Assembly (NCBI RefSeq): GCF_016863435.1
Contig: NZ_BOOW01000031.1
Span: 124,001 to 188,000, forward strand
Direction of reading: 5' to 3'
DNA length: 64,000 nt
DNA from: Sinosporangium siamense
Lineage (GTDB): Bacteria; Actinomycetota; Actinomycetes; Streptosporangiales; Streptosporangiaceae
In this document: positions 32,956 to 55,574 of the stretch, piece by piece
How the letters are laid out: every line of letters begins with the position of its first letter
How positions within the stretch are numbered: position 1 is the first letter of the stretch
Position numbers and translations under genes: made by a program
The notes under the pieces: generated by a model
What the model was told of the DNA's origin: nothing
Databases searched by the model: none
Seen by the model: the letters and a program-made list of their open reading frames with translations, nothing else

Positions 32956-33492
32956 TCGGAGTCTCCTAACCGGAATCCACCCCAAAGCTCAGCAGACCAG
33001 GGGCCCGGCGACAGGAATCCCTTCCCGCAATTCCACAGAACAAGAATTGCTCTCTGTGGGAGCACTGAAAACAACAGCGAAGCAGAGAAGAAGGAATAGC
33101 GTGCTAATCCCGCAAGCACCGTTATCCCACCATCACATCTTCCACGAAAGGACAACCTAATCCGACAATAACCAGCCAAGCCCCCGAAAGATTATCCTTG
33201 ACCCCCCATAAACCTCAACCAACCTCTTTACCAACCCCGGGTAGCACCCCCACCCAAACAGCCCTATGCACCCCGAATCTCACCCACCCCCAACCACACC
33301 CACAAACGAAACCACCCGCAACACACACTGCAAACCATCAACCCCCGCCACACCCACCCCACCTCCCGAGAACGCCCAAGCACCACCCCCCAGAACCCGT
33401 AAAGCCACAACCCACCCCCCCAGTTGAAGCCGCACACACGAACCCCACGCGACGCCGTACCCCCACCCCACGCACCGACGTACCATGATCTG
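32956..33492. other. Divergent intergenic region with strong strand asymmetry
   Basis: Between the heme-peroxidase operon and the endonuclease gene. From about 33180 to 33480 the plus strand is almost free of G and very rich in C and A. No gene is supported; the overlapping ORFs are low-complexity. TACCAT at 33481-33486 could be the -10 box of a leaderless transcript beginning at ATG 33493. Confidence 0.5.
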
Positions 33493-39238: not shown

Positions 39239-39547
39239 GTGCTGGCGTCCATGTTCGACGCGTACGGCGAAGCCAGGGATGGCCGGGTCTTCCCCAGGAG
39301 GACGGGTGGCCCCTATTCCGACTCCGCCTACTCTCGCGTCTGGCGGGAAGCTCGAGGGTTTGCGCCAACGCCTCGGCAGGTCGCCTCGTCGCCGGCCGCT
39401 CTGCCGTACGTTTTGCGCCAGGTGGCTGTGTCGCTATGGCTAAATGCGGGCGTTCCAGCCTTGGAGGTGGCTAAGCGCATCGGCCACAGTGTTGACGTCC
39501 TCCTTCGCATCTACGCCAAGTGTCCGGATAGTCGGCGAGATCGATGA
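39239..39547 (+). pseudogene. Tyrosine recombinase (phage/AICE integrase) C-terminal fragment
   Basis: The last 60 residues read VLRQVAVSLWLNAGVPALEV, AKRIGHSVDVLLRIYAKC, which is the end of an actinomycete integrase. It includes the Arg of box II, the GHS box and the Tyr nucleophile in RIYAKC. The expected His after LR is Gln, and the N-terminal arm-binding and core domains are absent, so it is non-functional. It ends 305 bp before the left 47-bp tRNA repeat, the usual position of int beside an attachment site, yet lies outside the island defined by the two repeats. Confidence 0.8.
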
Positions 39548-40326
39548 GGTGCTGGCTGCATGACCGGCTTCGGCCTTCTCGGTCCTGACTCCTGCAGGGG
39601 TCGTCCTAGGTGCCCATGGCTATGGCGTGCACGCGTAACACGATTGATGCCCTGTCCGGTGAGCTTTGGCAAATCAGGGCTCCCGAGACAACTTCCATCG
39701 CCGTTCTTACGTGGTGACTTGAGAGCATCCAGTCATGATCGTGATTCTGTGGCTGCATTTGGGGGCTGCGATGGCCTGCCAAGATCTGGACGGCGAAAGG
39801 GCCCCGCGGCTAGAAACCGCAGGTCAGCGCAGAAAGCCATGGTGTTGATAAGTGCCCCCGGCATGATTCGAACATGCGACACCCGCTTTAGGAGAGCGTG
39901 GACCAGGCTGTATGTTTACCTAGGCTGAACTGCAGAGATGCCGTGGGAGGCTCTTCCAGCTCGCCTGATCATCCCGCGCATGCCCCGCTCATGTTGAGCC
40001 ATTACCTTGGCTGAGCAGGGTTTGCTGCAGGTAACGGGCTCGCTGGCCTGAGTCATCTCTTGGCGGTTAAGTCGATGACCCATAGACCTCCAGCCGAATT
40101 GTCGCCCTCGACTCCGATACCTCCGCCGCGATCACCGCGAGCTCCGCGCTTCCGGTGATTCCCCGTTTATCCAGTTGCTGGCTCGGTTTCCGACGTCCGA
40201 GCCCCCACTGAGCGCCACTGCAATGGGACTTCCGCTCCAGCGGTTGGGGATGGTGCCGTCTTCTTCGATGCATTCGAAATCGTCGTCTGCGAGTGTGACG
40301 CGAGTACTTCAGGCGGCGCCCCATGC
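39548..40326. other. Region around the left island boundary, no gene
   Basis: It contains the 47-bp attachment repeat (39852-39898). The remaining sequence on either side has ORFs but no family-like content. Confidence 0.5.
39852..39898. repeat. Attachment-site repeat, left copy (3' part of tRNA-Arg)
   Basis: 47 bp identical to 55501-55547, covering the tRNA-Arg(CCU) gene from its 3' end through the T-arm to the anticodon loop and stem. The rest of the tRNA is missing here, so this is the displaced copy produced by integration. Confidence 0.93.
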
Positions 40327-40515
40327 TCAGAACTCATCCGAAGCGGTGACGAGGGCATGGACGTTCTCCATGATCTCCTTTATGAGGACATCGTCGGTGA
40401 GCACTGCGCCGAGTTTGCGATGCGCTTCCAGCTCGACATCATCCAGGAGACTGGAGGGCTCTCCTAGGGCCCGTACGCGGATATGCTTCCAGAGTGTCTT
40501 ATCCAGCTCATGAAG
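40327..40515 (-). pseudogene. Open frame without start after the small membrane protein, possible frameshifted continuation
   Basis: The frame reads LDKTLWKHIRVRALGEPSSL, EAHRKLGAVLTDDVLIKEIM and ends NVHALVTASDEF at 40327. It looks like real protein but has no start codon of its own. It begins where the membrane protein stops, in another frame, so the two may be one gene split by a frameshift. Confidence 0.4.
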
Positions 40516-40762
40516 CCTGCGCTCCGTCGGTCTCTTTCTTGTACTGCCCGAAGCTGTTCTGTAGCCGCTTCTCTGCAATGTCACGCTCGTCTCGCAGGCG
40601 CCGTTCGGCGTCCGCTCGGTCCTCCGCCTGCTGCTTCGCTGTGTTCCTCTGGTCATCGGCCCTGTACGTCGACTCACGCCGCCATCCAATGACGGCAACC
40701 GCTAGAGCAACTACAACGGCGAAGACAGTTCCCCAGCCTTGAAGGTGATCTGTGATTGGCAC
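40508..40762 (-). CDS. Small membrane-anchored coiled-coil protein
   Basis: GTG 40762 gives 84 residues: VPITDHLQ, then a transmembrane segment GWGTVFAVVVALAVAVIGW and a highly charged coiled coil (RNTAKQQAEDRADAERRLRD, ERDIAEKRLQNSFGQ). It lies immediately downstream of the HEPN-motif gene on the same strand and may be the last gene of the defence operon. The ribosome site is weak. The continuation in another frame suggests the gene may be broken. No family recognised. Confidence 0.45.
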   Translation of the reverse strand: MPITDHLQGWGTVFAVVVALAVAVIGWRRESTYRADDQRNTAKQQAEDRADAERRLRDERDIAEKRLQNSFGQYKKETDGAQAS

Positions 40763-40833
40763 GTTTTCCCAGGACGGGGTTGCCAGCACACGAGCGGAAA
40801 TCGAGTGGGAACTAAGCAGTAAGCAGTCGATTT

Positions 40834-41838
40834 TTATGCAGAATCTTCTCTCTCGTCTACGCGATTCGACAAAGAAGTGGCCATGGACAACAACTTCCCA
40901 ACCATTATTTGAAGTGTTGCCGCACGCTGTCCCACAACTTCTCGACTCGGACGCGGTACCGTACCGTGTACGAGTTGGCTTCGGAGCGTGTAGCACTTCT
41001 TGAAGAAGTCGGCCGGCGTCTCGTCCGCGAACTGCTGGTCGCCGAGCATGGAAGCGAGAGCTTGGCCCGCCTGCCCAATCGACTGCTTCCGGAGATCTCT
41101 TAAGGCGCCTAGTAGGGCGTCCCTCTCACGTACAGGGAGATCGGCCTGCTTGGTCTGTTTAAATAGATCGTTTACGTGAGCGACCACCGTCAGCGACCGG
41201 TCATCACGCTTGATGATGGTCTCGACCGCCATCATCAACATCAAGAACCGAGCGTCGGCCGAAGTTTCTGAGAAAGACGATGCGAAGAGACTGTGAGCAA
41301 CCAGCTGTGCATCGTCGAGTTGGAGGTCAGCTTGATCGGCCAGAGTTGACGCGCAGGAGACAATGTCCTCGATGGGGCGGCTCAGCACCGCCGTCAGCGG
41401 CATTGCAGTTTCGAATGCCGCTGCAGGCTCGCTGGGGAAGACCAGAATTCCGTGAACATTGTCCAGGACTTGTCGGGGCTGGTCAGCGTCCTCTTCCTCG
41501 AAGAGACGGCGTCCAGCATTGGTTAGCTCGCCCTGGGGTGCTCGGGTACCGAAATCTGCGCCGATGTTGAGCTGGGCGAAGGCCACCATGAGCGCAGCAC
41601 GCCACTTTTCGGCACTGGCTTGAGCCGCCGCAGCTGACGTGTAGTTCCTGCCGCGGATTACCATGAACCTGTCGTCGGCCCCCCATGTCTCCAGAGTGAC
41701 CTGACCCGCGGAATCTATGCAGATCTGTGAGTTGACGTCGACGCCCGTCACCTGAGACGTGTTTCCAATACGGAAGCGTATCCGGAAGTCATGTGGCGGT
41801 CCGGGCGCCACGGTCTCGTCCGATATATGAGTCAGCAA
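40834..41838 (-). CDS. Apea-like/HEPN-motif protein of the island operon
   Basis: TTG 41838, behind AAGGAGCCCCG, gives 334 residues. The C-terminal half is helical: ARFLMLMMAVETIIKR, DLFKQTKQADLPVRERDALL, FFKKCYTLRSQLVHGTVPRP. R286-x4-H291 in LRSQLVHG fits the R-x4-6-H motif of HEPN ribonucleases, and the layout resembles Apea-like HEPN proteins. The N-terminal part has no known domain. HEPN RNases act as toxins or abortive-infection effectors. It starts 19 bases after the DUF262 gene, so it is in the operon and may provide an RNA-cleaving backup. The nuclease idea is inferred from the motif only. Confidence 0.6.
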   Translation of the reverse strand: MLTHISDETVAPGPPHDFRIRFRIGNTSQVTGVDVNSQICIDSAGQVTLETWGADDRFMVIRGRNYTSAAAAQASAEKWRAALMVAFAQLNIGADFGTRAPQGELTNAGRRLFEEEDADQPRQVLDNVHGILVFPSEPAAAFETAMPLTAVLSRPIEDIVSCASTLADQADLQLDDAQLVAHSLFASSFSETSADARFLMLMMAVETIIKRDDRSLTVVAHVNDLFKQTKQADLPVRERDALLGALRDLRKQSIGQAGQALASMLGDQQFADETPADFFKKCYTLRSQLVHGTVPRPSREVVGQRAATLQIMVGKLLSMATSLSNRVDEREDSA

Positions 41839-41857
41839 CGGGGCTCCTTAATGCCGA

Positions 41858-43855
41858 CTATTCGACGCTGCTGACGGGGAAGGCGATGAGTTCGCCGATC
41901 CAGGGGGCCTCTTCCAGATTAGGGAGCTGGGAGAGGGGCAGAGCTTGGTCTTGTTCGTGAGCCATCATGTCGCGCCAGGCCTCGATGGTGCCCGACACAA
42001 GGTAAGGACCGACAGCGATCTTCACGGTGTCGCCCTCCACCTGGACCGGAGTGGTCTGGCCCGCGACTTCGAGGTCACTGTCGAGGCCGTTGCTCGCGGC
42101 GTCGATCGCAGCCACCAGGCCGTCGAAGCTAAAGGAACCGGTCCATGTCACGTCGTCGACCCTGGCGGTCGCCACGATCTTGCTGATGTCCCAACGGCTC
42201 TGATAGAGAACGAACTCCAGAGTGGAGCCCGGCTGTACCTCGGCCGGAGCGGCGGCCTGGGTGAGCCAGGTTGGCCGGAAACTGTCGAGGAGTTCGGTCA
42301 TGGCCGCAGCGAGAAGACGGCGGCGTTCGGCCAGGAACTCACGGTAGCTGGCGGCGTCGCGGAGCGGCTCGTCGTACGGGACGAAGTGGGCGGCCAGCTC
42401 CTCCTTGGTCAGGGGCGGCCCGTCGTCGACGAAGTAGACGCTCGGCGAACGGTCGCTGATCTTCCGGTTTGCCTTGCCTGAGATGAAAGCCAGGTTGGCG
42501 AGATCGTTGATCTCCGCCTTGCTGTACCTCTTCGGGTGGTTCTTCAGCGTGGCCTGCGGGTGGATGTGGTGGTGCTCCAGCTTGATATGATCTTCAGCAA
42601 TCGCTGAGATCTCAGTGCCGAACCACCAGTCCAGAGCGCCTGCCTTCTTTGCCACCAGGTAGCTCAACGGGAAATAGGCGCTTTCCCGCGTCTTGCCAGT
42701 CAGGTCCTGTGGGGTGATCTCGATCCGAGTGCCAATGACGCCAAGGTTTGCAAGCAGCTTCCTGATCGGCTCCGGCTCGCGCACTGTTGGGATGTCGCGG
42801 CCGAGCATGGTGTCGGTTGAACTGCTGTAGCGGTTGCGCAAGTTGGCCAGGAGGAACCAGTAGAGGATGCCGTCGCGGGTCTCCGTGTCGAGCGGCATGT
42901 CTGGCCGTTCGCCCAGGAAGATGACCAGCGGTAGCAGCGCCATGTGGGACGGGATGAGCGCGCTACTGGTGATCTTCAGGTTCTCCTTGAGCAGTGGCAC
43001 CAGATGACGCAGGCCACGCTGGACCGTCTTCCACCCAGCGTTCAGTGCATCGTCGGTCGCGGCGACCAAGCGGCTGTGTGACCAGGTGGAGAGCCCACGG
43101 CCGAGAACGGCCCCGGCTAGGGCACGGGTGAGGAATGTGACGTCGAGGTCCGGGTAGTGGCGCTGCGTCCAGTACGCCGCCTCGTCCTCAAGTTTCTGCA
43201 AGATACCCGGCCAGCGGGCAGAAAGCATGGCGAGCGTCAGATCGGTAGTCTTGAGCGCCCGGCCGCTGTTGACGCGGACGAAAATCTGCGCGATCTCGTC
43301 GTAGCCGAATCCAACGAGCAGTTCCATGTAGTAGATGCGATTCTTGATCGCTGCCAGCTTGCTCAGCCGCCGCCCGATCTCCTTGGACGATGCCCGGACG
43401 TCGGCGTCAAGCAGGTTCCCCTGCATCTCGAACAGGTCGGCGTCGTCACGGAGCACGTCGTAGACCTTGATCCAGCGGGAGTCGTTCTTGGTCGAGCTGC
43501 TCTGGTTCTGGAACGTCTCGTTCTCAATATCGAAGACGATCTGGGCGTCATCGTGGTTGTTGAAGATTCGGTGAAGAGAGGTGAGCCGCTGCTGGCCGTC
43601 CAGTAGGTAGAGCGGAGGCACCGTCGATTCCTGCGGGGTGGCCCCGATTGCCGCATCGCGCGTCAGCGGCGTCTCCCCCGTCTTCCACAGCAGAAGGGAG
43701 CCCGACGGATACTCGCGGTAGAGCGAGTCAATCAGCTTCGCGACCTGCGTGGGCTGCCAGACATAGCCGCGCTGGATCTCCGGGAGCTTGATCTCACCGG
43801 CGGAGATCTGGTCGATCAGCATCTTGATGGAGCGCTCGGTCTTCTCCACGGGCAT
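41858..43855 (-). CDS. DUF262/HNH (GmrSD-like) type IV restriction nuclease candidate
   Basis: 665 residues. The DUF262 N-domain shows IQRGYVWQPTQVAKLIDSLY (residues 28-47) and the signature LLDGQQRLTSLHR (84-96); this ParB/Srx-related fold in GmrS binds and hydrolyses nucleotide. At residues 425-470 is a His-Asn-type nuclease site: LEHHHIHPQATLKNH, NLAFISGKANRKISDRS, as in the DUF1524 part of GmrD. GmrSD enzymes cut DNA containing glucosylated hydroxymethylcytosine and, more generally, modified phage DNA. After residue 480 there is an extra C-terminal domain with no clear match. It lies 92 bp after the DUF499 gene and before the HEPN-motif gene. Confidence 0.83.
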   Translation of the reverse strand: MPVEKTERSIKMLIDQISAGEIKLPEIQRGYVWQPTQVAKLIDSLYREYPSGSLLLWKTGETPLTRDAAIGATPQESTVPPLYLLDGQQRLTSLHRIFNNHDDAQIVFDIENETFQNQSSSTKNDSRWIKVYDVLRDDADLFEMQGNLLDADVRASSKEIGRRLSKLAAIKNRIYYMELLVGFGYDEIAQIFVRVNSGRALKTTDLTLAMLSARWPGILQKLEDEAAYWTQRHYPDLDVTFLTRALAGAVLGRGLSTWSHSRLVAATDDALNAGWKTVQRGLRHLVPLLKENLKITSSALIPSHMALLPLVIFLGERPDMPLDTETRDGILYWFLLANLRNRYSSSTDTMLGRDIPTVREPEPIRKLLANLGVIGTRIEITPQDLTGKTRESAYFPLSYLVAKKAGALDWWFGTEISAIAEDHIKLEHHHIHPQATLKNHPKRYSKAEINDLANLAFISGKANRKISDRSPSVYFVDDGPPLTKEELAAHFVPYDEPLRDAASYREFLAERRRLLAAAMTELLDSFRPTWLTQAAAPAEVQPGSTLEFVLYQSRWDISKIVATARVDDVTWTGSFSFDGLVAAIDAASNGLDSDLEVAGQTTPVQVEGDTVKIAVGPYLVSGTIEAWRDMMAHEQDQALPLSQLPNLEEAPWIGELIAFPVSSVE

Positions 43856-43947
43856 GGGGGTGTTGCCTCGTTCCTGGTCTGCGAGGAGCGATGTGGATGA
43901 ATCACCCTAGGTGCGGCTGCCGCCACGCGGGCGCCAGCCGTACCGGG

Positions 43948-46900
43948 TCAGCGGTCTTCGAACTTGCCCTCGACCTTAAGGTGGCCGAGGTTCTCGAGCA
44001 CCTTCATGACGGTGTCGTCAGAGAATCCTTCGGTGCGTCGAGCGGTGATCTGAACTTCCACATCGAGCTCCACACCGTCGGGAGCGGTGAGCAGGGCGAG
44101 GAGATCCTTCGCGAGGCTGTTGAGGTCGCGGGAGTAGCGCTCCGGGTTGACATGGAGCGACCCCCAGAACCTGGTGTTGCGTACGGCGGGCAGGGGCGGG
44201 GGCTTTGGGCCTGGGCCGGAGGAGCCACCGGGCGTCGGCTGCCCGGAAGGAGCGGTTCCCGTCGTTTCGGTGAGATCCGCCCCGTCCCCGCCCGGCGTCG
44301 GGACGGACTGCCGCTCCTGTTCCTCGCGAGCGCGCTGTGCCTTGGCCCGGCCCAGTTCCACCAAGACGCTGCGGTCGGTCAGCTGGCTGAAGTACTCACC
44401 GGTGCCGGGGATGACGAGCTCGATGTAGCGGCGGTCCTCCTCGTCGTACCCGGCGGCGACCGCGAAGCCCTCGACATCGCCGGTGAGCTCTTCGAGGACC
44501 CGGAAGATGCCCTCCTCGAGGACCTTCCGGTTGCGCAGACGGCTGAGGTAGGGGAAACGACAGTAGTACTGCCACAGGTCCCCGAGCGAGATGTGCCCCT
44601 TCTCCCAGACCTTGGAGAGCTTCTTCTCCAGGTCGTGGCGGATCAGCCGGGCCCCCTGGACCGCGCGAAGCTGGTCGAGGTTGCGCAGCTTGGTTTCCAC
44701 TCGAGCGGGGATGACATCGCCCTCGTCGTCAATTGTGACCGAGCGCAAGCCGATGCGGCCGGTCTTGTCGTCCCAGATCGGATAGATCACCGTGTTGTAC
44801 GCCTGGGTGAGTCGTAGCCAAACGGTGTCGTCGGCGGTCTTGCGGCGCTTCTTCGCCATTGCGGCCTGATCGGGGACGAGGGGCAGGTCCTGGTCGTTGA
44901 CGATGGAATCCCATGCAAGGTAGTCGCGGGTGGCGTCCATCAGATAGCCGAGTAGCTCACGGTCCGCGGCAGCGAAGACCAACATGTTTTGATTAACCCG
45001 CGGCGTGTCGCCACGGGCCTCCAACGCCTGAGTGGCGAAGTCCCGAGCCGGACTGACCTGGTTTTGCGTAGAGAAATGATGGCGCGGGTGAATGATGGAG
45101 AGCGCGACCTCGTTGGTCTCGGAGATGTCGCCCCGCTCCAGGCCGGGGAAGACCCTCCCGAAGAGCCCTTTGTGCTTGCTCGCGGCGTCGCGCTCCTTCA
45201 GCCGACGGACGATGTCCACGTACACGTCTTCAGGGTGGCTGCGGTACTCCTCGGCACGGTCGCGGGCAAGTCGGTTGACCGACTGCTGGGTGTCGAACCA
45301 GTAGGAGCTGCCATCCACGTAGAAGTAGAGTGCCTGCTCGCTGAGCAGATGGATCGCCGAGGCGAAGTTACCCACGATGTCGCCGGGCAGGGCGGTGCCG
45401 AGCCAGATCCGCTTCCGCTCGACGCCTTTCTGCTGGGCGCCGGTGCGGGCGGCTGAGGCCAGAAACGCGGCTCGCGCCAGGCGACGGGTGATGTGCCGCT
45501 GGGCGAAGACGGCGCGGCTCTTGTCAATCCGCTCTGGCGTGGAATTCGGGGCGTCGACATCCGCCTCGATGACCGCTTTCCACGAGTCGGACAGGTAGTG
45601 GGTGACCTCGCCGAGCACCCACTCGTCGCCGAGCGGCAGCGACCCCGGCATGATTAGCGGGGCGGGGTCCTCTGCCTGCCAGAGTCGGTAGATCACTGCG
45701 CTCATCAGGCGGAGAACACCGCGGGTCTTCTGGAACCGCTCCAGCGTCGACCAGTCCTCGTAGAGCCGGTGAAATAGCTCGGGGTGGATCGGGTACGCCG
45801 CTTTGATCTCGTCCTCGTACTTGGGGTCGAGGACCACATTCGGGAACTCGGCTCCGTGCTCGCGGTAGAACTTCACCAGCGCCTTGGCGATGAAGTCGCG
45901 CTCCTTTTTCGCGGCGGAGGTCGGCTCCTCGAACAACCGCCGCCGGACGATTTCGAACGACTCGTCCGGCGTGGCTGGTCGCCAGTGCTTCCCGAGCCGG
46001 CCGACGACGTTCTGCAACCGCTCCAGGGCCTCCTGTCCACGAACACCGCCCACCTCGGCCTCGTTGCCCCTCGTGTTGCGGTCCTTCGGGTCATGCGAGG
46101 CGGGCACGGAGACAATAAGCATGACGCCCGGGATGGCCTTGGCCAGCTCGGTGAGGGTCTGGGCGAAGGTAAACTGCCCCTCGAAGTTGCCGCCGGGCAG
46201 GTCCTCCCGGCCGTGAAGCAGGCGTGCGTACGCCACCCACTCGTCGATGAGGATCACGCACGGCGCGTACGCCTCCAGCAACTGACGGAGCGATGCCCCC
46301 GACGGGACCCGATTCTGGTCGGACTCGGCGACGATGTCGTAGGCGTCCTGCCCGCCGAGCTGCCAGGCCAGCTCACCCCAGAGCGTGTTGATCCCAGGGC
46401 GGCCGCCCTCGTGGGTGGGCTTGGCCGTCTCGATGTGGTTGCCGACAATCGCGACACGACGCACGCCGGAGACGATCGGGGTTTCCCCCAGCATGTCCTG
46501 CACCGGCTGCGGGAAGTCGGTGGCCTCGTAGCCGGGGGCGTAGAGGTGCCAGACTGCGAGCATCGAGTGGGTCTTGCCGCCGCCGAAGTTCGTCTGCAGA
46601 TTAAAGACCGGCTCTGCGTTGCCGTCGCCGGCGATCCGGCGGGCGGTGTTGGACAGCAGTTCCTTTAGGCCGTCGGTGAGGTAGGTGCGCTGGAAGAAGT
46701 GGATGGGGTCGGCGTACTCGGGGCTGTTCGCCTTGCCGTTTGCTACGTGGTAAAGGTCGGCGGCGAACTCCGCCTGGGCGTACTTGCCGGTGCGGACGTC
46801 CTCATGCGGGATCATGACGTCGCGCCAGCTACCGAGCTTCTCTGCCGAGACAGTGATGGAAGCGGAGGCGCTCTTGCGGGCGCGGTCGAGCGCCCGCTTG

Positions 46901-47331
46901 TTGTCGATCTGGGTGCGGTGCTCGTCGCGCTGCTCGCGGACCTGGTCGGCGGCGGTGGCTGCGCCAACGGCGCGGAGCAGCCGCTCCATCGTGTCCAGGA
47001 TCCGGTAAGCGTCGTCGTAGGTGAGCTTCTCGTTGTGCGCCCAGGCGTTTCGGGCGTCGCGCAGCTCGCTCGCGTAGCGCTGGCCGGAGTGGCCGATCAG
47101 GTCGTGGAAGACCTTCCGATAGTCGGTGATGACCTTCAGCTGGAGCTGCGGGTCGTGCTTGGCCAGCTTCATCCCACCGCCGTGCTTGCTGGCTTCATTA
47201 GCCGCGATCAGGCCCAGCCAGTCCTTGCCTGGGGGCGCGGCGTCCTGCATGAGCCGGTCAATGACCGGCTCCAGCCCTTCGGCAAGGATCTCGAACCCTT
47301 TGCCCACCCGCTGGGCATGCGACAGCGCCAT
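43948..47331 (-). CDS. DUF499 ATPase with N-terminal Swt1-type HEPN-like domain (defence system)
   Basis: ATG 47331 has AAGGA close upstream; the frame extends to 47361. The product is 1127 residues. The N-terminus (residues 1-125) resembles the Swt1-family HEPN domain, with R94-x4-H99 in RDARNAWAHN. The ATPase core has Walker A NFGGGKTHSM (248-257), a Walker B-like CVILIDEWVAYARLL and further DUF499 sequence (RGVLRLMSAVIYRLW). DUF499 proteins occur with DUF1156 methyltransferases and helicases in defence islands. Their mechanism is not settled; the ATPase may be a motor or sensor. A Pro/Gly-rich linker near residue 1040 precedes a final small domain. Confidence 0.85.
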   Translation of the reverse strand: MALSHAQRVGKGFEILAEGLEPVIDRLMQDAAPPGKDWLGLIAANEASKHGGGMKLAKHDPQLQLKVITDYRKVFHDLIGHSGQRYASELRDARNAWAHNEKLTYDDAYRILDTMERLLRAVGAATAADQVREQRDEHRTQIDNKRALDRARKSASASITVSAEKLGSWRDVMIPHEDVRTGKYAQAEFAADLYHVANGKANSPEYADPIHFFQRTYLTDGLKELLSNTARRIAGDGNAEPVFNLQTNFGGGKTHSMLAVWHLYAPGYEATDFPQPVQDMLGETPIVSGVRRVAIVGNHIETAKPTHEGGRPGINTLWGELAWQLGGQDAYDIVAESDQNRVPSGASLRQLLEAYAPCVILIDEWVAYARLLHGREDLPGGNFEGQFTFAQTLTELAKAIPGVMLIVSVPASHDPKDRNTRGNEAEVGGVRGQEALERLQNVVGRLGKHWRPATPDESFEIVRRRLFEEPTSAAKKERDFIAKALVKFYREHGAEFPNVVLDPKYEDEIKAAYPIHPELFHRLYEDWSTLERFQKTRGVLRLMSAVIYRLWQAEDPAPLIMPGSLPLGDEWVLGEVTHYLSDSWKAVIEADVDAPNSTPERIDKSRAVFAQRHITRRLARAAFLASAARTGAQQKGVERKRIWLGTALPGDIVGNFASAIHLLSEQALYFYVDGSSYWFDTQQSVNRLARDRAEEYRSHPEDVYVDIVRRLKERDAASKHKGLFGRVFPGLERGDISETNEVALSIIHPRHHFSTQNQVSPARDFATQALEARGDTPRVNQNMLVFAAADRELLGYLMDATRDYLAWDSIVNDQDLPLVPDQAAMAKKRRKTADDTVWLRLTQAYNTVIYPIWDDKTGRIGLRSVTIDDEGDVIPARVETKLRNLDQLRAVQGARLIRHDLEKKLSKVWEKGHISLGDLWQYYCRFPYLSRLRNRKVLEEGIFRVLEELTGDVEGFAVAAGYDEEDRRYIELVIPGTGEYFSQLTDRSVLVELGRAKAQRAREEQERQSVPTPGGDGADLTETTGTAPSGQPTPGGSSGPGPKPPPLPAVRNTRFWGSLHVNPERYSRDLNSLAKDLLALLTAPDGVELDVEVQITARRTEGFSDDTVMKVLENLGHLKVEGKFEDR

Positions 47332-47382
47332 TTCTTCCTTGCCTATCCCCTCGCCACCCATGTTCGCCCGCCCGGCCGCTCG

Positions 47383-50133
47383 TCAGTCGTCATCGTCTTC
47401 GGCCTCCTCCTCGAAGGAAGAGAAGAGATCATCGATCTCAGGTGTAACGTACCGCTCAGGCGAGACATTTTGGGCGGCTGTCATGATGTCCGGCCAAGCG
47501 GTACCGAGCTCGTTGAACATGGTGGCCGTTTTCTGGTATTTCCGGTCGGAGATTTTGAAGAGCCGGTGGACGAGCCGGTTAACTCGGTCGAGGCTGATTG
47601 CAGCGTCCGTACGGCCCCGCACTCCGGCGACCAAACGGGCCGCGCCGTCAATGCCCTGCTCTTTGAAGCATTTGGCCAGGTGCATTGCGACCTCCCAGTG
47701 AGAGATCCGATTGTCCTTGACCGGGTCATAGTTCGCTGGCAGCTCGTCGAAGTCGAGCAGGCAGACCGTGGACCGGGGGGTATTACTGACGATCCCCGCC
47801 TCGACGAGATCGCGGATGGCAGTGCCGGTCTGGCGGAGCACAACGTCAGCATCACCGTACGCACCGCGATCGAAAGCGAACTGGCGGAACCATTTCAGCG
47901 CGAACCTGGTGGGCGCATCGAACTCGGCCTCTTCACCATCGATGATGGCGGTCGCAGCCTTGTCGATCTCGATAAGTGCCTCGCGTACGGTCATCGGCTT
48001 ACCGTCCGGCTGGAGAACCTCCTTATAGCCTGAAAAGATCCGCATCCCCGGCCCGATCGCTGCCTGACCCATGTCCAGCGGAGACACGCCACCCTTGCGA
48101 AGCGCCTCGATAGCATCGGGGAGCTCCTCCTGAAGCTGTGTTAGGAAACTCGACTTGTCGGCAACGTCGTCGGCCTGCCGCGGACGACAAATCAGAATGA
48201 TGTAGGAGGCAAGGGCGTTAGCTCCCTGGCTGACCTGTCGGGTGCTCATCGTGGAGTCAATCGGCATGGTGCCTACTACGCTGAGCTCGGAGGTTAGGAC
48301 GGCCTGAAGCAGAGAAACCCAGGCGGACGAGACTGCCCCTGCGCCTTCCGAGTCATCCTGCTTGGCCGCGTATGCGACAACAATCGGGAGATCCGAGCGG
48401 GAAGCTTTCTGCAACGAGGTGAAGACTTCGGTGAAGCCGTCAATGAAGTACTGCTGCGCCTTCTCCTTGCTGCCCTCATGACGAGCTGGGTTCGCCACGA
48501 GTTCGACAGATTTCGGCGTGGCGATCGTCCCGAACAGATCCGGATGGATATCGTGCAGCGCACGGCGGAGCCAGAGGTAGAAGTAATCACTCAGGTCTGC
48601 ATAATTGATCTGCCCGAAGTACGGAGGGTCCGTCACGATCAGAGCTGTCCCAGGCCGGACGAGGTCTCCTGCTCGGCGCGCATCGACCTGCACGACCCGT
48701 CCCGACTCCACTCCGATGGGCAGGGACTTCAACACGCCGATGACGGATGTGATCTGCGCAGACCAGCTTCCCACAGACTCGCCGAACGGATATGCCTCGG
48801 CGAAATCCCAGAGCATGGGCATCGCCTGCGTGCCGAATCCCGGTTCAGGCTTAGAGGGGCCGAGCCGCGTACGCCAGCGGACCAGACTGGAATTGGCTTG
48901 GGCCATCTTGCTGACGCAGATGCCAAGAAGCGTAGTGATAGCGCGTGCCTGTTCAACACTCCCGCCGTCAATAAGGATTTGGTCATAGACCTCCGCCACA
49001 TCGTCGGCGAACGCGGCGAGCACCGCCAACTGCCTAGGTGTGTATAGGTCGATGTGGCGCCGCAACCCGTAGAGGCCCGTGCGGAAGTCTCTGGTGTTGC
49101 TCCCAATCTCGATCTCATCGAGATCATCCGGCACCTCAACATCAAAGCTGCGTTCAAGTTCGGCTGAGGGACTTACAAAGGTGCGGCCGCTCTTCGTATC
49201 CATGCAGTAGGCCATGAGCTGAAGGCCCAGATCGCCAGACTGTCCGGCTGCACGCAATTCCTTCTCGCCCAATGGTGATGAGCATTTTGGGCAGGCGAAC
49301 TGAGCTCGTCCGGCACCCTTGGTCGCTTTGGCCGGACCTTCCTTTCCTTGGTGGACGACGAACTGAATCTTGTCACCGTTAACGACTGCCTCGACAGTGG
49401 CTTCGCGCCCCCTCTGCTTGCTCAGCCACGGTGACCCGAACAATGGCACGCGGACCTCGCACATGGGGTTGGTGCAGGGCGCGGTCCTGGCCCAGAGCCA
49501 CGCCACCGGCTCGCCGCCTTCCAGCACAGGGTAGTAGGGACCGACCCTCTCCTTGACCTTCTCCTGCACGATGGCAGCGTAGTGACGGAGGTCGTCAGCG
49601 AATCCGTCGTACGGGAGATCGCGCATCCGGGCTGCGTCGTTACTCTTGGAGATCGCCGGGGTGAGGGCGACCGGGGGTAGCAGTTCCCCGAGCGCGCGGG
49701 TCACAAGCGCCGCCACTGGGTTTAGATCAGAACTCACCGCCGGAAGCCCCAGGCGCAGCGCTTCCACGATCGTGGAGCCACCGCCTGCGAAGGGATCCAT
49801 GACGGTAGGCAGCTCCGGGTTGGACGCGGCGATCAACCTGCGAGCCCTGCGAAGTATGTCGTCCGACGGTGCGGTGCCGTCGAAGGGCACCAGCTCCTTG
49901 ACGAACTCGATTAGGTCGTCTCGTTCCTTGCCCGGCCCGGGGTCGTCCACCAGTGAGGCGAAGATGAGCGCGCGGAGAGCCGGGGTCGGCATGGGGGCGA
50001 ACCACTTGTGCAGGTTCTTGATCGTGCCGACCTTGCGTTCCTTGTATGCGATGCTCGCGTAGCTGATCTGCGTAAGCGGCAGTGTCACGTCGATGAGCTT
50101 GCGCCGGTACTCACCATTGGTTCCCTGGCTCAT
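47383..50133 (-). CDS. DUF1156 DNA methyltransferase (adenine/N4-cytosine amino type)
   Basis: 916 residues from ATG 50133 (GGAGGAG upstream). The DUF1156 N-domain is visible as LHKWFAPMPTPALRALIFAS. Motif I is DPFAGGGSTIVEALRLG (113-129), and the catalytic motif IV is DPPYFGQINYADLSDYF at roughly residue 510, the DPPY form of amino-methyltransferases. It contains an insert with CPKCSSPLG and other Cys residues that may bind zinc. In the system it probably marks host DNA. Its start overlaps the stop of the helicase gene (ATGA), so translation is coupled. The DUF499 gene starts 51 bp downstream. Confidence 0.9.
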   Translation of the reverse strand: MSQGTNGEYRRKLIDVTLPLTQISYASIAYKERKVGTIKNLHKWFAPMPTPALRALIFASLVDDPGPGKERDDLIEFVKELVPFDGTAPSDDILRRARRLIAASNPELPTVMDPFAGGGSTIVEALRLGLPAVSSDLNPVAALVTRALGELLPPVALTPAISKSNDAARMRDLPYDGFADDLRHYAAIVQEKVKERVGPYYPVLEGGEPVAWLWARTAPCTNPMCEVRVPLFGSPWLSKQRGREATVEAVVNGDKIQFVVHQGKEGPAKATKGAGRAQFACPKCSSPLGEKELRAAGQSGDLGLQLMAYCMDTKSGRTFVSPSAELERSFDVEVPDDLDEIEIGSNTRDFRTGLYGLRRHIDLYTPRQLAVLAAFADDVAEVYDQILIDGGSVEQARAITTLLGICVSKMAQANSSLVRWRTRLGPSKPEPGFGTQAMPMLWDFAEAYPFGESVGSWSAQITSVIGVLKSLPIGVESGRVVQVDARRAGDLVRPGTALIVTDPPYFGQINYADLSDYFYLWLRRALHDIHPDLFGTIATPKSVELVANPARHEGSKEKAQQYFIDGFTEVFTSLQKASRSDLPIVVAYAAKQDDSEGAGAVSSAWVSLLQAVLTSELSVVGTMPIDSTMSTRQVSQGANALASYIILICRPRQADDVADKSSFLTQLQEELPDAIEALRKGGVSPLDMGQAAIGPGMRIFSGYKEVLQPDGKPMTVREALIEIDKAATAIIDGEEAEFDAPTRFALKWFRQFAFDRGAYGDADVVLRQTGTAIRDLVEAGIVSNTPRSTVCLLDFDELPANYDPVKDNRISHWEVAMHLAKCFKEQGIDGAARLVAGVRGRTDAAISLDRVNRLVHRLFKISDRKYQKTATMFNELGTAWPDIMTAAQNVSPERYVTPEIDDLFSSFEEEAEDDDD

Positions 50134-53100
50134 ACCGGGGCTCCTCCTCGCTTCCACGTCTTCTTCCAGTCACCACCGAGCTCGGTGGCGTCGAACTTCC
50201 CGAAATCTACGTCCTTGAAGGGGTCAACGACATATCGGACATCGTCCTTGTCGGGCCCATCCGGATGAACGCTGACCAGCGCCAGCCGGAAGTTCTGCCC
50301 TGAATTCTTGCCGGTTAGGACCTCGGTCCGGGTGACGTGGAAGCCGTCTGCTCCGGTGATCCGGCCCTTGACCTCGATGAACACCCAGTGGTCATCCACG
50401 GTACGGGACCGGATGTCGTACCCGGGATTGTTATGGGCCATCTCCTCCGGGATCCGGCCGAGCTTCCGCTCCTCTTGCAGCACTCGGTCGACCGCGCGGC
50501 GTTCCACGGCCTCGGTCTCCCGCGCGTACGCCTCCGGCGGCTGGTCTCGGAGCCCGGCCAATCGGTCGAGCAATCCCTGCGGGATTACCAGGGCGGCCCC
50601 GCCGACCCGGGGTGGACGAACCTGGAGACGGGCGTCGCGGTCGAGCTCGCCCATGCGCCGTTCCATCCGCTGTTCCAGGTTCCGAGCCTGGCGGTCGGCG
50701 AACTCGGACTTCATCTTGACCGACTTGCCGGCCTGCTCGGCGTCGAGGAGGTCGGCGTGGCGCGAGTCCCAGTAGTTGATCTCCTGGAGGAGGCGCTGCC
50801 GTACTAAGCGCCGGGTCCGTTCGGTCTCACGGGTGACGCGCTCTTGCAGATCGGCGATGTGTGTACTCAGGCCGTTCTGCACAGCCCAGCCGATGGCGAT
50901 ATCTTCGACGCCACTGGCCAACCAGGGCTCTTCGAGGATGGGCTGGACCAGGGTGCGCTCCTCCTCGGTCGTCGGCGCGTAGTCGAGATAGGGCGCGGCT
51001 CCAGCCGTGCGGGCTTCGGAACGGCCGATCTCGACGAAGTTGAAGCGCTTGCTGATGATCCGCGGCTTTTCGTGCCCGTCGGCGATCTCCTGAGCGACCG
51101 CGACGAGCAACCGCGGTTCCTCGTCGACGTCGCGCCGATTGACCAAGATGACGCCCTGCTTCAGCTGCGAGCCGTACCGGTCGACGATCAGCGAGACCAC
51201 GGCGTCGAGTAACGGGTGCCCCGGAGCGAGCAGCGCTGCCTGGGGCGCGCCCGCCTGACGGATGAGGGATCGGTCGAAGGTGACCCGCTCATAGCGGTGG
51301 ACCACTGGCGCACCGATCTTGATGAGGTGCTCGAAGTGACGGACGTCGGCCGGGACGTGGGTGATCTCGTACCGGCCCGGCTCACGTTCGGAGATCCGGC
51401 CCCCGAGCAGCTTGAAGGCGGTGAGGAAGAATGCCTTGATGTAGTGCGGTTGGAGGCGGCGGGCCTTGGCCTCCTCCATCCGCAGCCGCCAATCGGCGAC
51501 GTCGGCCTCAGCAAGCTTTTGGTGTGCGAGGGCCCGCTCGGCCAGCAACTTCTCCAGGCCGTCGCCGACCGAGGAGTCGATAACCTCATTGAGCCGGTTG
51601 CGTACCTCGGGCTGGTCGCCGTACTGGATGGCCTCCATGAGCAGTGCGCGGAGCGGCCGATCCTGGAATGCCTCGCCGAGGACGTCGAAGACCTTGCCCT
51701 TGTATGCCTTCCGCTGCTCCTCGATCTTGCCCAAGAGCCGCAGGAACACCGCGCCCTCGCGCGTGTCCCCGGCGACCAGATTCCACAGGTGGCAGACCTC
51801 AGTCTGGCCGATACGGTGGATGCGGCCGAAACGCTGCTCGATTCGGTTGGGATTCCATGGAAGGTCGTAGTTGACCATGAGGTTGGCGCGCTGAAGGTTG
51901 AGACCTTCGCCGGCCGCATCAGTGGCGATCAGGATGCGGCAGTCTTTGTCCTGGGTGAACAGCTCCTTAATCTTCCGGCGGTTGTCACGGGAAACACCAC
52001 CGTGGATGGTGACGACCGCCTCTTTGCTGCCGAGAAGGCCGCTGATCCGATCGCGAAGGTACTCCAGGGTGTCCCTGTGCTCTGTGAAGATGATCAGCTT
52101 GCGGGGGCTGCCGTCTGCGTCGCGGACCATAGGGTGGCTGAGCAGCAGTTCACGGAGCTCGATCCACTTCTTGTCGGTGCCGCTACGCCGTACCCGACGG
52201 GCGACCTCGACGAGGTCGGCGAGGATTAGAATTTCCTTATCGAGCTCGGCGAGGGTCTGCGCGGCAGTTGCGGCGTCGACGACGTCGTTCTCGAGCTCTT
52301 CGAGTTCTGCACTGGGCAGGTCATCCAAGGTCGTGTCGTATTCGGATGGGTCTTTGCCGAGCATTGCGGCGAGCCGGTCTCGGAGCGTGGTCTCTATCGG
52401 ACTGCGGCCGGTGAGCATCTCCTGGCGCAGGAGTTGCAGACGCTTATGGCGGCGGATGAGCGACTGCAGGATCGCCTCCGGGCTGGAGGCCAGGCGCCGT
52501 TGGAGGACAGTGAGGGCGAAGCCGACGGTGTTGCCGCGTTTGCCGTCCGCCATGGCTTGAGCCTTGCCCATTTGGTCGCGGACATACTCGGTCACAACCT
52601 CGTACAGCTCGCGCTCGGCGTCAGAGAGCAAGTAGGGGACGGTGTATGCGCGCCGCTCGGGGAAGAGCGGCTTGCCCTCGAAGGTGAGCAGGTCTTCCTT
52701 GACCATGCGGCGCATGAGACCGTCGGTGTCGGTGGAGCTGACGCCCTCGCGGTACTTGCCCTCGAACCGGTCGGAGTCGAGCAGGCCCATGAAGAGCTGG
52801 AAGTTGGCCTCATTGCCTGCGTGCGGGGTCGCGGTCATCAGCAACAGGTGCCGGGTGTGCTTGCCGAGGATCTCCCCGAGCTGGTAGCGCTTGGTCTTCT
52901 TCAGTTCATCGCCGAAGTAGCTGGCGGACATGCGGTGGGCCTCGTCGACTACGACCAGGTCATAGTCAGACTGCTTGAGCTGCTCCTGGAGATCCTCGGA
53001 GCGGGAGAGCTGGTCCATCCGTGCGATGAGTAGCGGGTATTTCTCGAAGGCAGTCTGGTCGAGCTGGGCGTTGATCAAGTCACGGGTGAGCACGTCGAAA

Positions 53101-53639
53101 CGGAGGCCGAACTTGTCGAGGAGCTCTTCCTGCCACTGGTCGACGAGGCCGCCTGGGGCGACGATCAGGCAGCGCTCCAGGTCACCGCGGAGCATGAGCT
53201 CCTTGATATAGAGGCCGGCCATGATGGTCTTTCCTGCGCCTGGGTCGTCGGCCAGGACGAAGCGCAGCGGGCTGCGGTCAAGGAGCTCGCCGTAGACCGC
53301 CTGGATCTGGTGCGGTAGCGGCTCCAGGTCACTGGTCGTGACCGCGAGCATGGGGTCGAAGCGGGCGGCCATGCGGATACGGAGGGCCTCGGCGGCGAGT
53401 TTGAAAAGCGTGCCATCGCCGTCGAAGCTGTAGGCCGCCGATGCAGTCCGAATGGTGAGGCGGGCTTCCGAGTCACGATAGAGGAGCTGGTCAGCGACGC
53501 CGCCGTCCTCAGCACGGTAGGTGAGCATGACGGCGTTGTCGCCGTACCACTTGGCCGCTACCACGGTGACGTTGCCGTTCGTTGTCACTCCGTCCACAAC
53601 GGTGCCGGGCGTCAGGTCCTCTAGCCTTACCCCCGCCAC
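50130..53639 (-). CDS. SNF2-type helicase with C-terminal DUF3883/PD-(D/E)XK-like domain
   Basis: 1169 residues from GTG 53639, with GGGGAGG upstream. SNF2 motifs: Walker A DDPGAGKTIMAGL (131-143), DEAH (232-235), MTATPHAGN, LIATDAAGEGLNLQRA, and RFGRIHRIGQ. The C-terminal 100 residues have NPGYDIRSRTVDDHWVFIEV with D1075 and E1089-x-K1091, a D-x(13)-ExK arrangement that fits the DUF3883 family, related to restriction-like nucleases. The helicase may translocate on DNA and carry the nuclease. It is the first gene of the operon; its promoter should lie in 53640-53870, next to the truncated FtsK gene. Confidence 0.9.
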   Translation of the reverse strand: MAGVRLEDLTPGTVVDGVTTNGNVTVVAAKWYGDNAVMLTYRAEDGGVADQLLYRDSEARLTIRTASAAYSFDGDGTLFKLAAEALRIRMAARFDPMLAVTTSDLEPLPHQIQAVYGELLDRSPLRFVLADDPGAGKTIMAGLYIKELMLRGDLERCLIVAPGGLVDQWQEELLDKFGLRFDVLTRDLINAQLDQTAFEKYPLLIARMDQLSRSEDLQEQLKQSDYDLVVVDEAHRMSASYFGDELKKTKRYQLGEILGKHTRHLLLMTATPHAGNEANFQLFMGLLDSDRFEGKYREGVSSTDTDGLMRRMVKEDLLTFEGKPLFPERRAYTVPYLLSDAERELYEVVTEYVRDQMGKAQAMADGKRGNTVGFALTVLQRRLASSPEAILQSLIRRHKRLQLLRQEMLTGRSPIETTLRDRLAAMLGKDPSEYDTTLDDLPSAELEELENDVVDAATAAQTLAELDKEILILADLVEVARRVRRSGTDKKWIELRELLLSHPMVRDADGSPRKLIIFTEHRDTLEYLRDRISGLLGSKEAVVTIHGGVSRDNRRKIKELFTQDKDCRILIATDAAGEGLNLQRANLMVNYDLPWNPNRIEQRFGRIHRIGQTEVCHLWNLVAGDTREGAVFLRLLGKIEEQRKAYKGKVFDVLGEAFQDRPLRALLMEAIQYGDQPEVRNRLNEVIDSSVGDGLEKLLAERALAHQKLAEADVADWRLRMEEAKARRLQPHYIKAFFLTAFKLLGGRISEREPGRYEITHVPADVRHFEHLIKIGAPVVHRYERVTFDRSLIRQAGAPQAALLAPGHPLLDAVVSLIVDRYGSQLKQGVILVNRRDVDEEPRLLVAVAQEIADGHEKPRIISKRFNFVEIGRSEARTAGAAPYLDYAPTTEEERTLVQPILEEPWLASGVEDIAIGWAVQNGLSTHIADLQERVTRETERTRRLVRQRLLQEINYWDSRHADLLDAEQAGKSVKMKSEFADRQARNLEQRMERRMGELDRDARLQVRPPRVGGAALVIPQGLLDRLAGLRDQPPEAYARETEAVERRAVDRVLQEERKLGRIPEEMAHNNPGYDIRSRTVDDHWVFIEVKGRITGADGFHVTRTEVLTGKNSGQNFRLALVSVHPDGPDKDDVRYVVDPFKDVDFGKFDATELGGDWKKTWKRGGAPV

Positions 53640-53870
53640 GTACGCCTCCCCTTAGCGTCGGCCTCGTGCTTCACGTTATTTCGCAATCCTTCCGGTTGAG
53701 TCACGCAGAACATAGCGGGCGGCCCTGACAGATCCGGTTGGAAGCCCCCGAAGTTCTTGCATGCAACTCTCCGCAACCTTCTCACAGCGTATGGTGGCGG
53801 AGAAGGTGAGAACTCCAGCTCAGCCAGCACAGCATGGTGCCGAGCAAGGCATACCGCGAGGCGTCTGCGC

Positions 53871-54320
53871 CGCGTTACAGCAGACGAGATCGCCAAGACC
53901 TCGACGGCACTGCTGCGAGTGGCGCAGCTCGGACGTGCCTTTGGCATCTACCTGTCCTGCTGCGGCCAGCGCATCGGCTCCGACCTCGGCCCCGGCGTCA
54001 CCGCGCTGCGCGCCCAGTGCTCAGGACGGATCTGCCACCGCGTCAACGATTCCGAGACCGCGACCATGACCCTCGGCGACCTCGACCCGGCTGCCCTGGT
54101 CTCCGCCCGCGCCATCGCTGCCGAGACACCCGGCGTCGCGATCGTCGCCTCCCAGGACGGCCAGTGGTACCGCGCCCGTTCCTTCCACGTCTCCGAGCGA
54201 GCCGCCGAACACGCGGCCCGGATGTACGCCGACCTGGCCCCCTCCTGGGACGAGATTACCGAGGGCGCCCACACGACCGAGATGAACACCTGCGACCTAG
54301 ACGAACTCCTCAACGCCTGA
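53871..54320 (+). pseudogene. FtsK/TraB-type conjugal DNA translocase, C-terminal remnant
   Basis: The frame reads VTADEIAKTSTALLRVAQLG, GPGVTALRAQCSGRICHRVN, ETATMTLGDLDPAALVSARA and IAAETPGVAIVA. This matches the last third of AICE FtsK/TraB ATPases, which transfer double-stranded DNA between mycelia. Walker A and B and the N-terminus are missing: the likeness begins at about 53877 and upstream sequence is unrelated, so the gene was cut when the defence operon arrived or later. The end of the protein is intact and is followed by the normal next gene. Confidence 0.83.
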
Positions 54321-54332
54321 AAGGGGGACACG

Positions 54333-54953
54333 ATGCGACGCCTTGCCTGCTGGCTGATCGACTCTGGGCCGGTCCTGGTCCTGGCCGTCATCGCGGGTGC
54401 CGGATCGTTCACCCACATCCGGGACACGGCCACCGAGCACTGACAGTCCGGCTGGATGGCCTGGGCCATCGCCGTATGCGTCGATCTCACCTGTGTCATG
54501 GCCGCTCGCGAACGCCAGCGCGACAAGAAGGCCGGCCGCGTCCCGGACGGCTGGATCTCCTGGCCGACCCTCGTCCTGATCGCTGGGGTCGTCCTGTCCC
54601 TGGCCGCCAACCTTAACCAAGCCGACCCCACCGCCTGGGGCTGGCTCACCGCCGCGACCCCGGCTGGCGCCTTCCTCGTCGCAATCTCCATGCTGGAGCG
54701 CCGCGCCTCAGCTCCATCCTTCATCCCGTGAGTCGTCCCCGAACCGGTCCTCACGCCTGTCCCGATCGTCGAGATCGAACAGGACGGCCCGTCCTCAGAG
54801 CTTCTCGACTACGCCCGCCGTGTGGCCGAGGAATACCAGACCGCGCAGGGCAAGCCGATCAGTCGCGACACCCTGCGCGCCCGTCTGGGCGTATCCCACC
54901 AACTGGCCTCCGACCTGCTGCGCACCCTGCGCACCGCCCCGGAAGCCCCGTGA
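54333..54953 (+). pseudogene. DUF2637 (Spd-type transfer) membrane protein gene with two in-frame TGA codons
   Basis: ATG 54333 follows GAAAGGGGGA. One continuous frame of 206 codons to TGA 54951-54953 is interrupted by TGA at 54441-54443 and again at 54729-54731. The three pieces read in order as one DUF2637 protein: RLACWLIDSGPVLVLAVIAG, GWMAWAIAVCVDLTCVMAAR with further TM segments (PTLVLIAGVVLSLAANL), and a C-terminal HTH-like tail (GKPISRDTLRARLGVSHQLA). DUF2637/Spd proteins help spread AICEs within the mycelium. Codon pattern around the stops is otherwise intact, so the nonsense changes are recent, or the sequence has errors. Confidence 0.82.
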
Positions 54954-54967
54954 AAGGAGAACCATCC

Positions 54968-55288
54968 ATGTCCACCGACTCCGAGCGCCGTACCGCCTTC
55001 ATCTGCGGCCTGCGGGACCTGGCCGCCTTCATGGAGACCAACCCCGCCGTCCCCGTCCCAACCGACCCGACGATCATCACCTACTACCCCGAGCAGAGCA
55101 CCGACACTGGCCTCCGCGCCGAGGTCGACCGGATCGCAGCACTGTGCGGCACGAAGGTCGATCCACGCCTGCTGCCACACGGCCTCTACACAGTCGCCCA
55201 CTGCTTCGGACCGATCCATTTCGAGGTGACGGCGATCCTCGAAGCCGCCCGGGACGGTGCCGCCACCGAACCTCCCCATGGGTTCTGA
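54968..55288 (+). CDS. Conserved AICE-type small protein, hypothetical
   Basis: ATG 54968 lies behind GAAAGGAGAACCATCC. The 106-residue product (MSTDSERRTAFICGLRDLAA, PTIITYYPEQSTDTGLRAEV, HCFGPIHFEVTAILEAARDG) has no membrane segment or known motif. Small proteins of this type are found between the spd and rep genes of actinomycete integrative elements, but I give no function. It follows the DUF2637 gene by 14 bases and overlaps the next small ORF by 11 bases, which supports that both are real genes of the old element. Confidence 0.7.
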   Translation: MSTDSERRTAFICGLRDLAAFMETNPAVPVPTDPTIITYYPEQSTDTGLRAEVDRIAALCGTKVDPRLLPHGLYTVAHCFGPIHFEVTAILEAARDGAATEPPHGF

Positions 55289-55418: not shown

Positions 55419-55500
55419 GTCGTCGGCGCCCCCGGCCTGATCGTACATCCGCTTCAGGGAAGAACTCCCAAATCAGACGGCAAACTATAAGGTCAACTAG

Positions 55501-55547
55501 GTGCCCCCGGCATGATTCGAACATGCGACACCCGCTTTAGGAGAGCG
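55501..55547. repeat. Attachment-site repeat, right copy (inside tRNA-Arg)
   Basis: Identical 47 bp to 39852-39898. It covers the 3' part of the intact tRNA gene from base 55502 upward. Confidence 0.93.
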
Positions 55548-55574
55548 GTGCTCTATCCCCTGAGCTACGGAGGC
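55502..55574 (-). tRNA. tRNA-Arg (anticodon CCU)
   Basis: On the minus strand the 73-base sequence folds as a cloverleaf. The acceptor GCCTCCG pairs with CGGGGGC (one G-U), the D-arm is GCTC/GAGC, the anticodon stem CCGCT/AGCGG holds the loop CTCCTAA (anticodon CCT), and the T-arm is GCATG-TTCGAAT-CATGC. The 3' CCA is not encoded. This gene is the integration site of the island on its 3' side. Confidence 0.96.

Follow-up and report, generated by a model that had tools for sequence, protein, structure and literature searches.

A predicted Hma system with an associated GmrSD-type nuclease on a tRNA-Arg(CCT) island of Sinosporangium siamense, and a suggested exchange of its methylase

Do five defence-like genes packed on one strand of the Sinosporangium siamense genome form one layered system of a new kind, or a known system in the company of other genes? 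The question was raised by a stretch of 64,000 nucleotides (contig NZ_BOOW01000031.1, positions 124,001 to 188,000; here called the window), which belongs to an 8.86-Mb genome in 84 contigs (labelled G000 in the comparisons, contig C31). Its list of open reading frames (ORFs) contained five tandem minus-strand ORFs spanning positions 53639 down to 40834. The best explanation of the whole, to which we assign a probability of roughly 80 %, is a restriction-modification-like Hma system with an Hma-associated GmrSD nuclease encoded directly downstream, carried as cargo of an island at a tRNA-Arg(CCT) gene; the fifth gene would be a passenger and the methylase gene would have been exchanged. The kind of operon is ordinary and known, and the locus is well preserved.

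HmaA (50130..53639, minus strand like the four that follow; 1169 amino acids) displayed a Snf2-type helicase (Pfam Helicase_C and ResIII) and a C-terminal NOV_C/PD-(D/E)xK nuclease domain with D1075...E1089-x-K1091; NOV_C (PF13020, 62.1 bits) is what we take to be the former DUF3883. HmaB (47383..50157; 924 amino acids) was a predicted DUF1156 DNA methyltransferase with DPFAGGG and DPPY motifs (Pfam DUF1156 and N6_N4_Mtase), and HmaC (43948..47361; 1137 amino acids) an N-terminal Swt1-like HEPN domain (RNAWAH, residues 104-109) fused to a DUF499 AAA+ ATPase with the motif GGGKTH. A PADLOC search of each protein identified these three as HmaA, HmaB and HmaC (1446.4, 674.6 and 809.8 bits, respectively), all present together in one operon according to the profiles and ORF coordinates. 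Judged by these profiles, the first three genes amount to a standard Hma system, alias Type-1 BREX-related (BREX, bacteriophage exclusion). The fourth protein (41858..43855; 665 amino acids) was of GmrSD type, with a DUF262 DGQQR motif and an HNH-like HHHIHP motif; GmrSD_N reached 94.6 bits against a cut-off of 33.2 while GmrSD_C, at 19.3 bits, stayed below its cut-off of 23. With this reservation, Pfam matched the families named by the original prediction (helicase-DUF3883, DUF1156 methyltransferase, DUF499, DUF262 plus HNH). The fifth, P334 (40834..41838; 334 amino acids, TTG start), was a solo HEPN-like protein with Y283 and R286-x4-H291.

HmaA and HmaB overlapped by 28 bp, followed by gaps of 21 bp (HmaB/HmaC), 92 bp (HmaC/GmrSD) and 19 bp (GmrSD/P334). 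Five or six packed genes had been predicted, of which five are real, with gaps of 19-92 bp as described; the predicted start at 40508 corresponded to ORF 40508-40996, which had no Pfam or NCBIfam match and one PADLOC match (E 0.0031) and is probably not a gene. The HEPN gene of R-x4-H type does exist, as ORF 40834-41838, and the 28-bp overlap between HmaA and HmaB is not of ATGA type. A promoter scan found one site for 2.2 expected and a terminator scan 11 terminator-like sites for 8.7 expected, both uninformative on transcription.

Hma was named in 2021, with HmaB predicted as a 5-methylcytosine (m5C) enzyme (PMC8565338). A study from 2026 places Hma as Type-1 BREX-related and treats the methylase as N6-adenine specific (PMC12839542). 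The window shares with both descriptions a helicase with C-terminal nuclease, a DUF1156 methylase and a DUF499 ATPase in one operon, and its HEPN-DUF499 fusion is a common variant: the latter study counts HEPN-fused DUF499 ATPases in 1370 of 2446 Type-1 taxa, and an active C-terminal PD-(D/E)xK nuclease on the helicase in 79 % of taxa. A HEPN-DUF499 fusion was already described in 2013 in a restriction-modification operon, the Snf2 helicase there being fused to DUF3883 (PMC3710099). The window differs in the additional GmrSD and P334 genes downstream, and in an HmaB lineage remote from that of the group Y loci (defined below) to which it is closest by HmaA.

The original prediction considered this version different from known ones as it lacked DUF3780 and phospholipase D (PLD) partners. 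This is not supported, since DUF3780 and an HKD/PLD helicase are hallmarks of Type-2 BREX-related systems and Type-1 systems lack them, according to PMC12839542. Helicase, methylase and ATPase of the window are distant homologues of their Type-2 counterparts and missed all three NCBIfam equivalog cut-offs by far (PLD helicase, 180.3 of 1100 bits; DUF1156, 85.6 of 1000; DUF499, 144.3 of 1200); neither DUF3780 nor a Pfam PLD domain matched any of the five proteins at E 0.01. The NCBIfam anti-phage DUF1156/DUF499/PLD set presumably corresponds to the Type-2 systems. A new system type was ruled out by the PADLOC profiles and the literature.

An order-wide sample of 342 genomes was searched with the PADLOC HmaC profile, a control of this search matching in one of 14 named genomes (Thermotoga maritima). 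HmaC was found in 28 genomes and at full length in 17, including that of the window. The D and E-x-K residues of the HmaA nuclease were conserved throughout the 17 rows of the alignment, a fragment among them, the DPPY motif of HmaB in all 16 rows having letters there, and the Walker A motif of HmaC in 17 of 17. Ratios of non-synonymous to synonymous divergence (pN/pS) between the window and G576, a genome of another genus, were 0.09-0.15 for HmaA, HmaB, HmaC and GmrSD. The HEPN domain of HmaC (HEPN_Swt1, PF18731; 95.3 bits, residues 21-133) had been overlooked in the original prediction. Its R-x4-H motif was intact in seven of the 17 loci, window included; in the other ten the catalytic arginine was replaced by G or A and the histidine retained.

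The GmrSD of the window was searched for in an equally large sample. Matches occurred in 79 genomes, of which 11 were close (at least 56 % identity, window included) and 68 distant (at most 35 %, except in G607, where a fragment of 76 residues reached 65 %). Close GmrSD lay within 10 kb of HmaC in nine of 11 genomes and, by coordinate comparison, distant GmrSD in none of 68 (Fisher test on hand-entered counts, 2.7e-10), with up to three GmrSD candidates scored per genome and with short contigs that can hide links. Five genomes with distant GmrSD (G484, G666, G607, G568 and G667) did possess HmaC, on another contig in four and about 1 Mb off in one. The close form was found directly downstream of Hma in six genomes (G000, G576, G469, G703, G614 and G694), one gene further in G600 and G601, divergent and on the other side beside HmaA in G669, and with Hma fragments nearby in G654. 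Of 11 aligned rows, window included, DGQQR was present in all, HH[IV]HP in ten and an exact NRKISD in six. This GmrSD is an accessory whose preference for Hma is real, and the proposed linkage of the DUF262 gene to the methylation-linked genes recurred in related genomes.

Such linkage is in print. GmrSD-like genes (HEC-05 and HEC-06) embedded in Hma clusters are mentioned in PMC11411939, citing a 2024 preprint by Payne, and PMC12839542 lists GmrSD-type HNH proteins and HEPN RNases among the auxiliary nucleases near the core. Like HEC-05 and BrxU, which are GmrSD-like proteins encoded in Hma or beside BREX (PMC11411939; PMC12839542), the protein of the window combines DUF262 and an HNH-like part in one chain and is linked to Hma. 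It differs in sitting at the operon end, and HEC-05 was its best PADLOC model at 141.1 bits (E 1.2e-41), no PADLOC cut-off being given for it. The idea of a methylation-linked module and a type IV nuclease as layers is half right: a restriction-modification-like core with recurrent GmrSD stands (nine of the 17 full-length Hma genomes) and was already published, and the part assigned to the solo HEPN protein fails the linkage test.

Several genes near GmrSD in other loci were seen in passing. A gene of about 711-771 amino acids separated HmaC from GmrSD in G600 (L084) and G601 (L083); the G600 copy had no PADLOC match at 1e-4 and no Pfam match at 0.01. A protein of about 1110 amino acids, with its first 40 residues alike by eye, followed GmrSD in L082, L083 and L084 and HmaC in L080; its G614 copy was unmatched in Pfam and PADLOC. 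A further gene came next after it in G600, G601 and G467, the G467 copy resembling the DruE helicase. In L085 (G694), about 6.8 kb lay between an HmaB fragment and HmaC, indicating an interrupted Hma operon.

A 50-bp direct repeat (98 % identity, 49 of 50 positions) flanks the 15.65-kb element that holds the five genes. The left copy (39849..39898) reproduces the 3' part of tRNA-Arg, and the right one (55498..55547) lies inside the tRNA-Arg(CCT) gene identified by ARAGORN (55500..55574, minus strand), the integration site. Remnant mobile-element genes were present at 53757..55288 on the plus strand (PHROG FtsK-like, 7.8e-6; DUF2637-like only at E 0.084), and most of this stretch also adjoined Hma in G576. 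That genome carried a homologous element, with similarity over 41693-54707 and weaker similarity to 55251. Its contig displayed a tRNA-Arg repeat at 26683 and two more copies beyond, three in all; its tRNA-Arg gene was on another contig, and continuity of the element with the tRNA is thus not established. Just outside the left repeat of the window, a C-terminal fragment of a tyrosine integrase (39239-39547; PHROG integrase, 6.9e-10) is probably left over from an adjacent element.

It might be that the genes are mere neighbours gathered in a tRNA-Arg(CCT) hotspot, with Hma, GmrSD and P334 each acting alone. The direct repeats would fit this, as would the same element in G576, whose contig bears the three repeat copies. 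The tRNA-Arg(CCT) of G533 has right beside it a distant GmrSD, an ApeA-like gene and, about 4 kb away, P334, which makes hotspot integration a simple route for P334 to reach Hma. Against gathering as an account of GmrSD stand the 9/11 versus 0/68 contrast and close GmrSD tied to Hma elsewhere too, for instance in G469, where tRNA-Arg matches are more than 1.2 Mb away. We consider independent action of all three somewhat unlikely, and favour an island that delivered an Hma system together with an associated GmrSD.

For P334, the counts went the other way. Its Y, R, S, L and H residues, including R286 and H291, were invariant in all seven aligned rows, window included. No Pfam family matched up to E 5, and searches of PADLOC, NCBIfam and PHROGs gave no family at their set thresholds; HEPN models were absent among the Pfam matches of seven homologues, Foldseek against PDB returned nothing at E<=0.001, and a profile search against solved structures gave weak signal recognition particle matches only. 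Upon structural re-alignment, HEPN proteins ranked first. P334 resembles the HEPN proteins ApeA, HepT and Csm6 in its R-x4-H and probably in a HEPN-like fold, and is unlike them in the missing Pfam HEPN match and in its N-terminal half, which was poorly modelled and matched to nothing. Relatives numbered none in one scan of viral contigs, none in one search of phage records and one in plasmids; a scan of genome contigs with two short peptide patterns gave two loci, one already known, and as only these patterns were scanned the true spread is under-sampled.

The original prediction suggested one system with an RNA-cleaving backup. In the strict form of this view, all five genes would form a dedicated layered defence with P334 as an obligatory part. 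Its position on the strand of GmrSD, 19 bp away, the Shine-Dalgarno-like AAGGAG upstream of its TTG start, a GmrSD/P334 junction for which no terminator-like site was listed, a pN/pS of 0.29 against the G533 homologue and a stub retained at the same place in G576 are all compatible with that view. An intact P334 was, however, present in only one of the 17 Hma loci, that of the window; G576 kept the other four genes with P334 broken; HmaC already carries a HEPN domain of its own; and Hma genes were found in none of the seven other P334 neighbourhoods read (G614, whose weak P334-like match of E 1.6e-6 did not reappear in tblastn at E 1e-3, was left out of this count). These neighbourhood counts ruled out P334 as a core part and leave a single five-gene system very improbable; P334 is probably a separate HEPN-like protein and a passenger. 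As a HEPN-like family for which Pfam and PADLOC have no model, it extends the set of candidate defence proteins. Directly after one P334 relative, a 393-amino-acid protein with the motif RDRLSH and without Pfam match (L098:10811-11992) was noticed, a possible HEPN pair.

The methylase gene showed a different history from that of HmaA. Gene trees of a quick kind, some with long branches, were built for 16 loci; G694 was left out as the stretch fetched held part of HmaB and no HmaA. Two groups were considered, X (G000, G576, G469, G669) and Y (G703, G614, G600, G601, G467, G696). The HmaA tree joined X and Y with a support of 100 and identities of 75-80 %, and the opposite grouping was rejected (p 2e-4). 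HmaB, by contrast, was only 38-41 % identical between X and Y while Y was 53-65 % identical to five other loci, and an X+Y clade was rejected (p-AU 1.6e-7). The HmaC tree leaned to the HmaB topology and was undecided (p 0.107). By these trees HmaA and HmaB have different histories; which gene was the replaced one, tree conflict alone cannot tell.

Synonymous divergence (pS) from the sister locus in G576 was 0.20 in HmaA, 0.65 in HmaB, 0.29 in HmaC and 0.15 in GmrSD, HmaB being about threefold above its neighbours. Along the operon, the final two HmaA blocks gave 0.16 and 0.00, the first HmaB block 0.44, HmaB codons 61-720 0.58-0.86, the region near the HmaB end 0.26-0.51 and the HmaC start 0.27, a profile suggesting that most of the HmaB gene was replaced. 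A sharp swap of a target-recognition domain was rejected, as protein identity to G576, G469 and G669 varied gene-wide without one swapped block. GC content at third codon positions (GC3) was 0.74 in HmaB and 0.83-0.86 in HmaA, HmaC and GmrSD. Together, the conflicting trees and the raised pS suggest that the whole HmaB gene has moved between operons conserved in their other parts, in line with a role as specificity subunit.

Fast evolution of HmaB in place would also separate it from HmaA. Inside group Y, HmaB identities were 68-79 % against 84-87 % for HmaA (97 % in HmaA for the pair G600/G601), and the synonymous contrast against G469 was mild, as expected from such a process. Selection on the protein does not, however, explain a pS low at the HmaA end and the HmaC start and high within HmaB, and the tree topologies conflict; evolution in place seems unlikely. 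Exchange being preferred, HmaB may be an exchangeable specificity cassette: operons would keep the helicase-nuclease and the GmrSD partner and swap HmaB, perhaps with HmaC, the self-mark may change in one recombination step, and GmrSD would cover modified phages hidden from the changing core. This extension is tentative, and we hold it at less than even odds. The main text of PMC12839542, when searched, held no mention of recombination, swapping, exchange or displacement, a statement on this one paper. Sister elements in two genera, that of the window and that of G576, differing mostly in HmaB and the loss of P334, offer a test bed for whether HmaB alone sets Hma specificity.

As to its working, HmaB would mark host DNA by methylation, probably of adenine, with the target specified by HmaB itself; HmaC would scan DNA together with it, as PMC12839542 proposes after BrxC; and the HmaA helicase-nuclease would attack DNA devoid of the mark. 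The HmaC HEPN domain, its R-x4-H intact here, could serve as a last-resort RNase. GmrSD would attack modified-base phage DNA escaping the Hma core, the layers being complementary by analogy with BrxU/BREX and TgvAB (PMC11411939).

Several points weigh against the overall explanation. The activity of every gene is deduced from sequence signatures, and HmaB is predicted as an m5C enzyme in PMC8565338, and its DPPY motif, Pfam and PMC12839542 point to adenine. With the catalytic arginine gone in ten of 17 loci, a suicidal or RNase step by the HmaC HEPN domain cannot be general. No close GmrSD was present in eight of the 17 full-length Hma loci (17.7-19.5 kb read in each), which together with the divergent copy of G669 makes it an accessory rather than a core part; in G421 a close relative came without any Hma gene over the 18 kb read. 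As for the exchange, groups X and Y were named after the identity table had been seen, quick trees were used, and the p of 0.107 for HmaC decided nothing. The synonymous contrast was clear only against G576; HmaB was only mildly higher in the comparison with G469 and between G576 and G469 (0.68 against 0.50-0.57 in the other genes), and its low GC3 could also mean relaxed codon choice.

Outside the island, positions 32001-34000 of the window displayed a strong composition skew (GC skew -0.294, AT skew 0.326).

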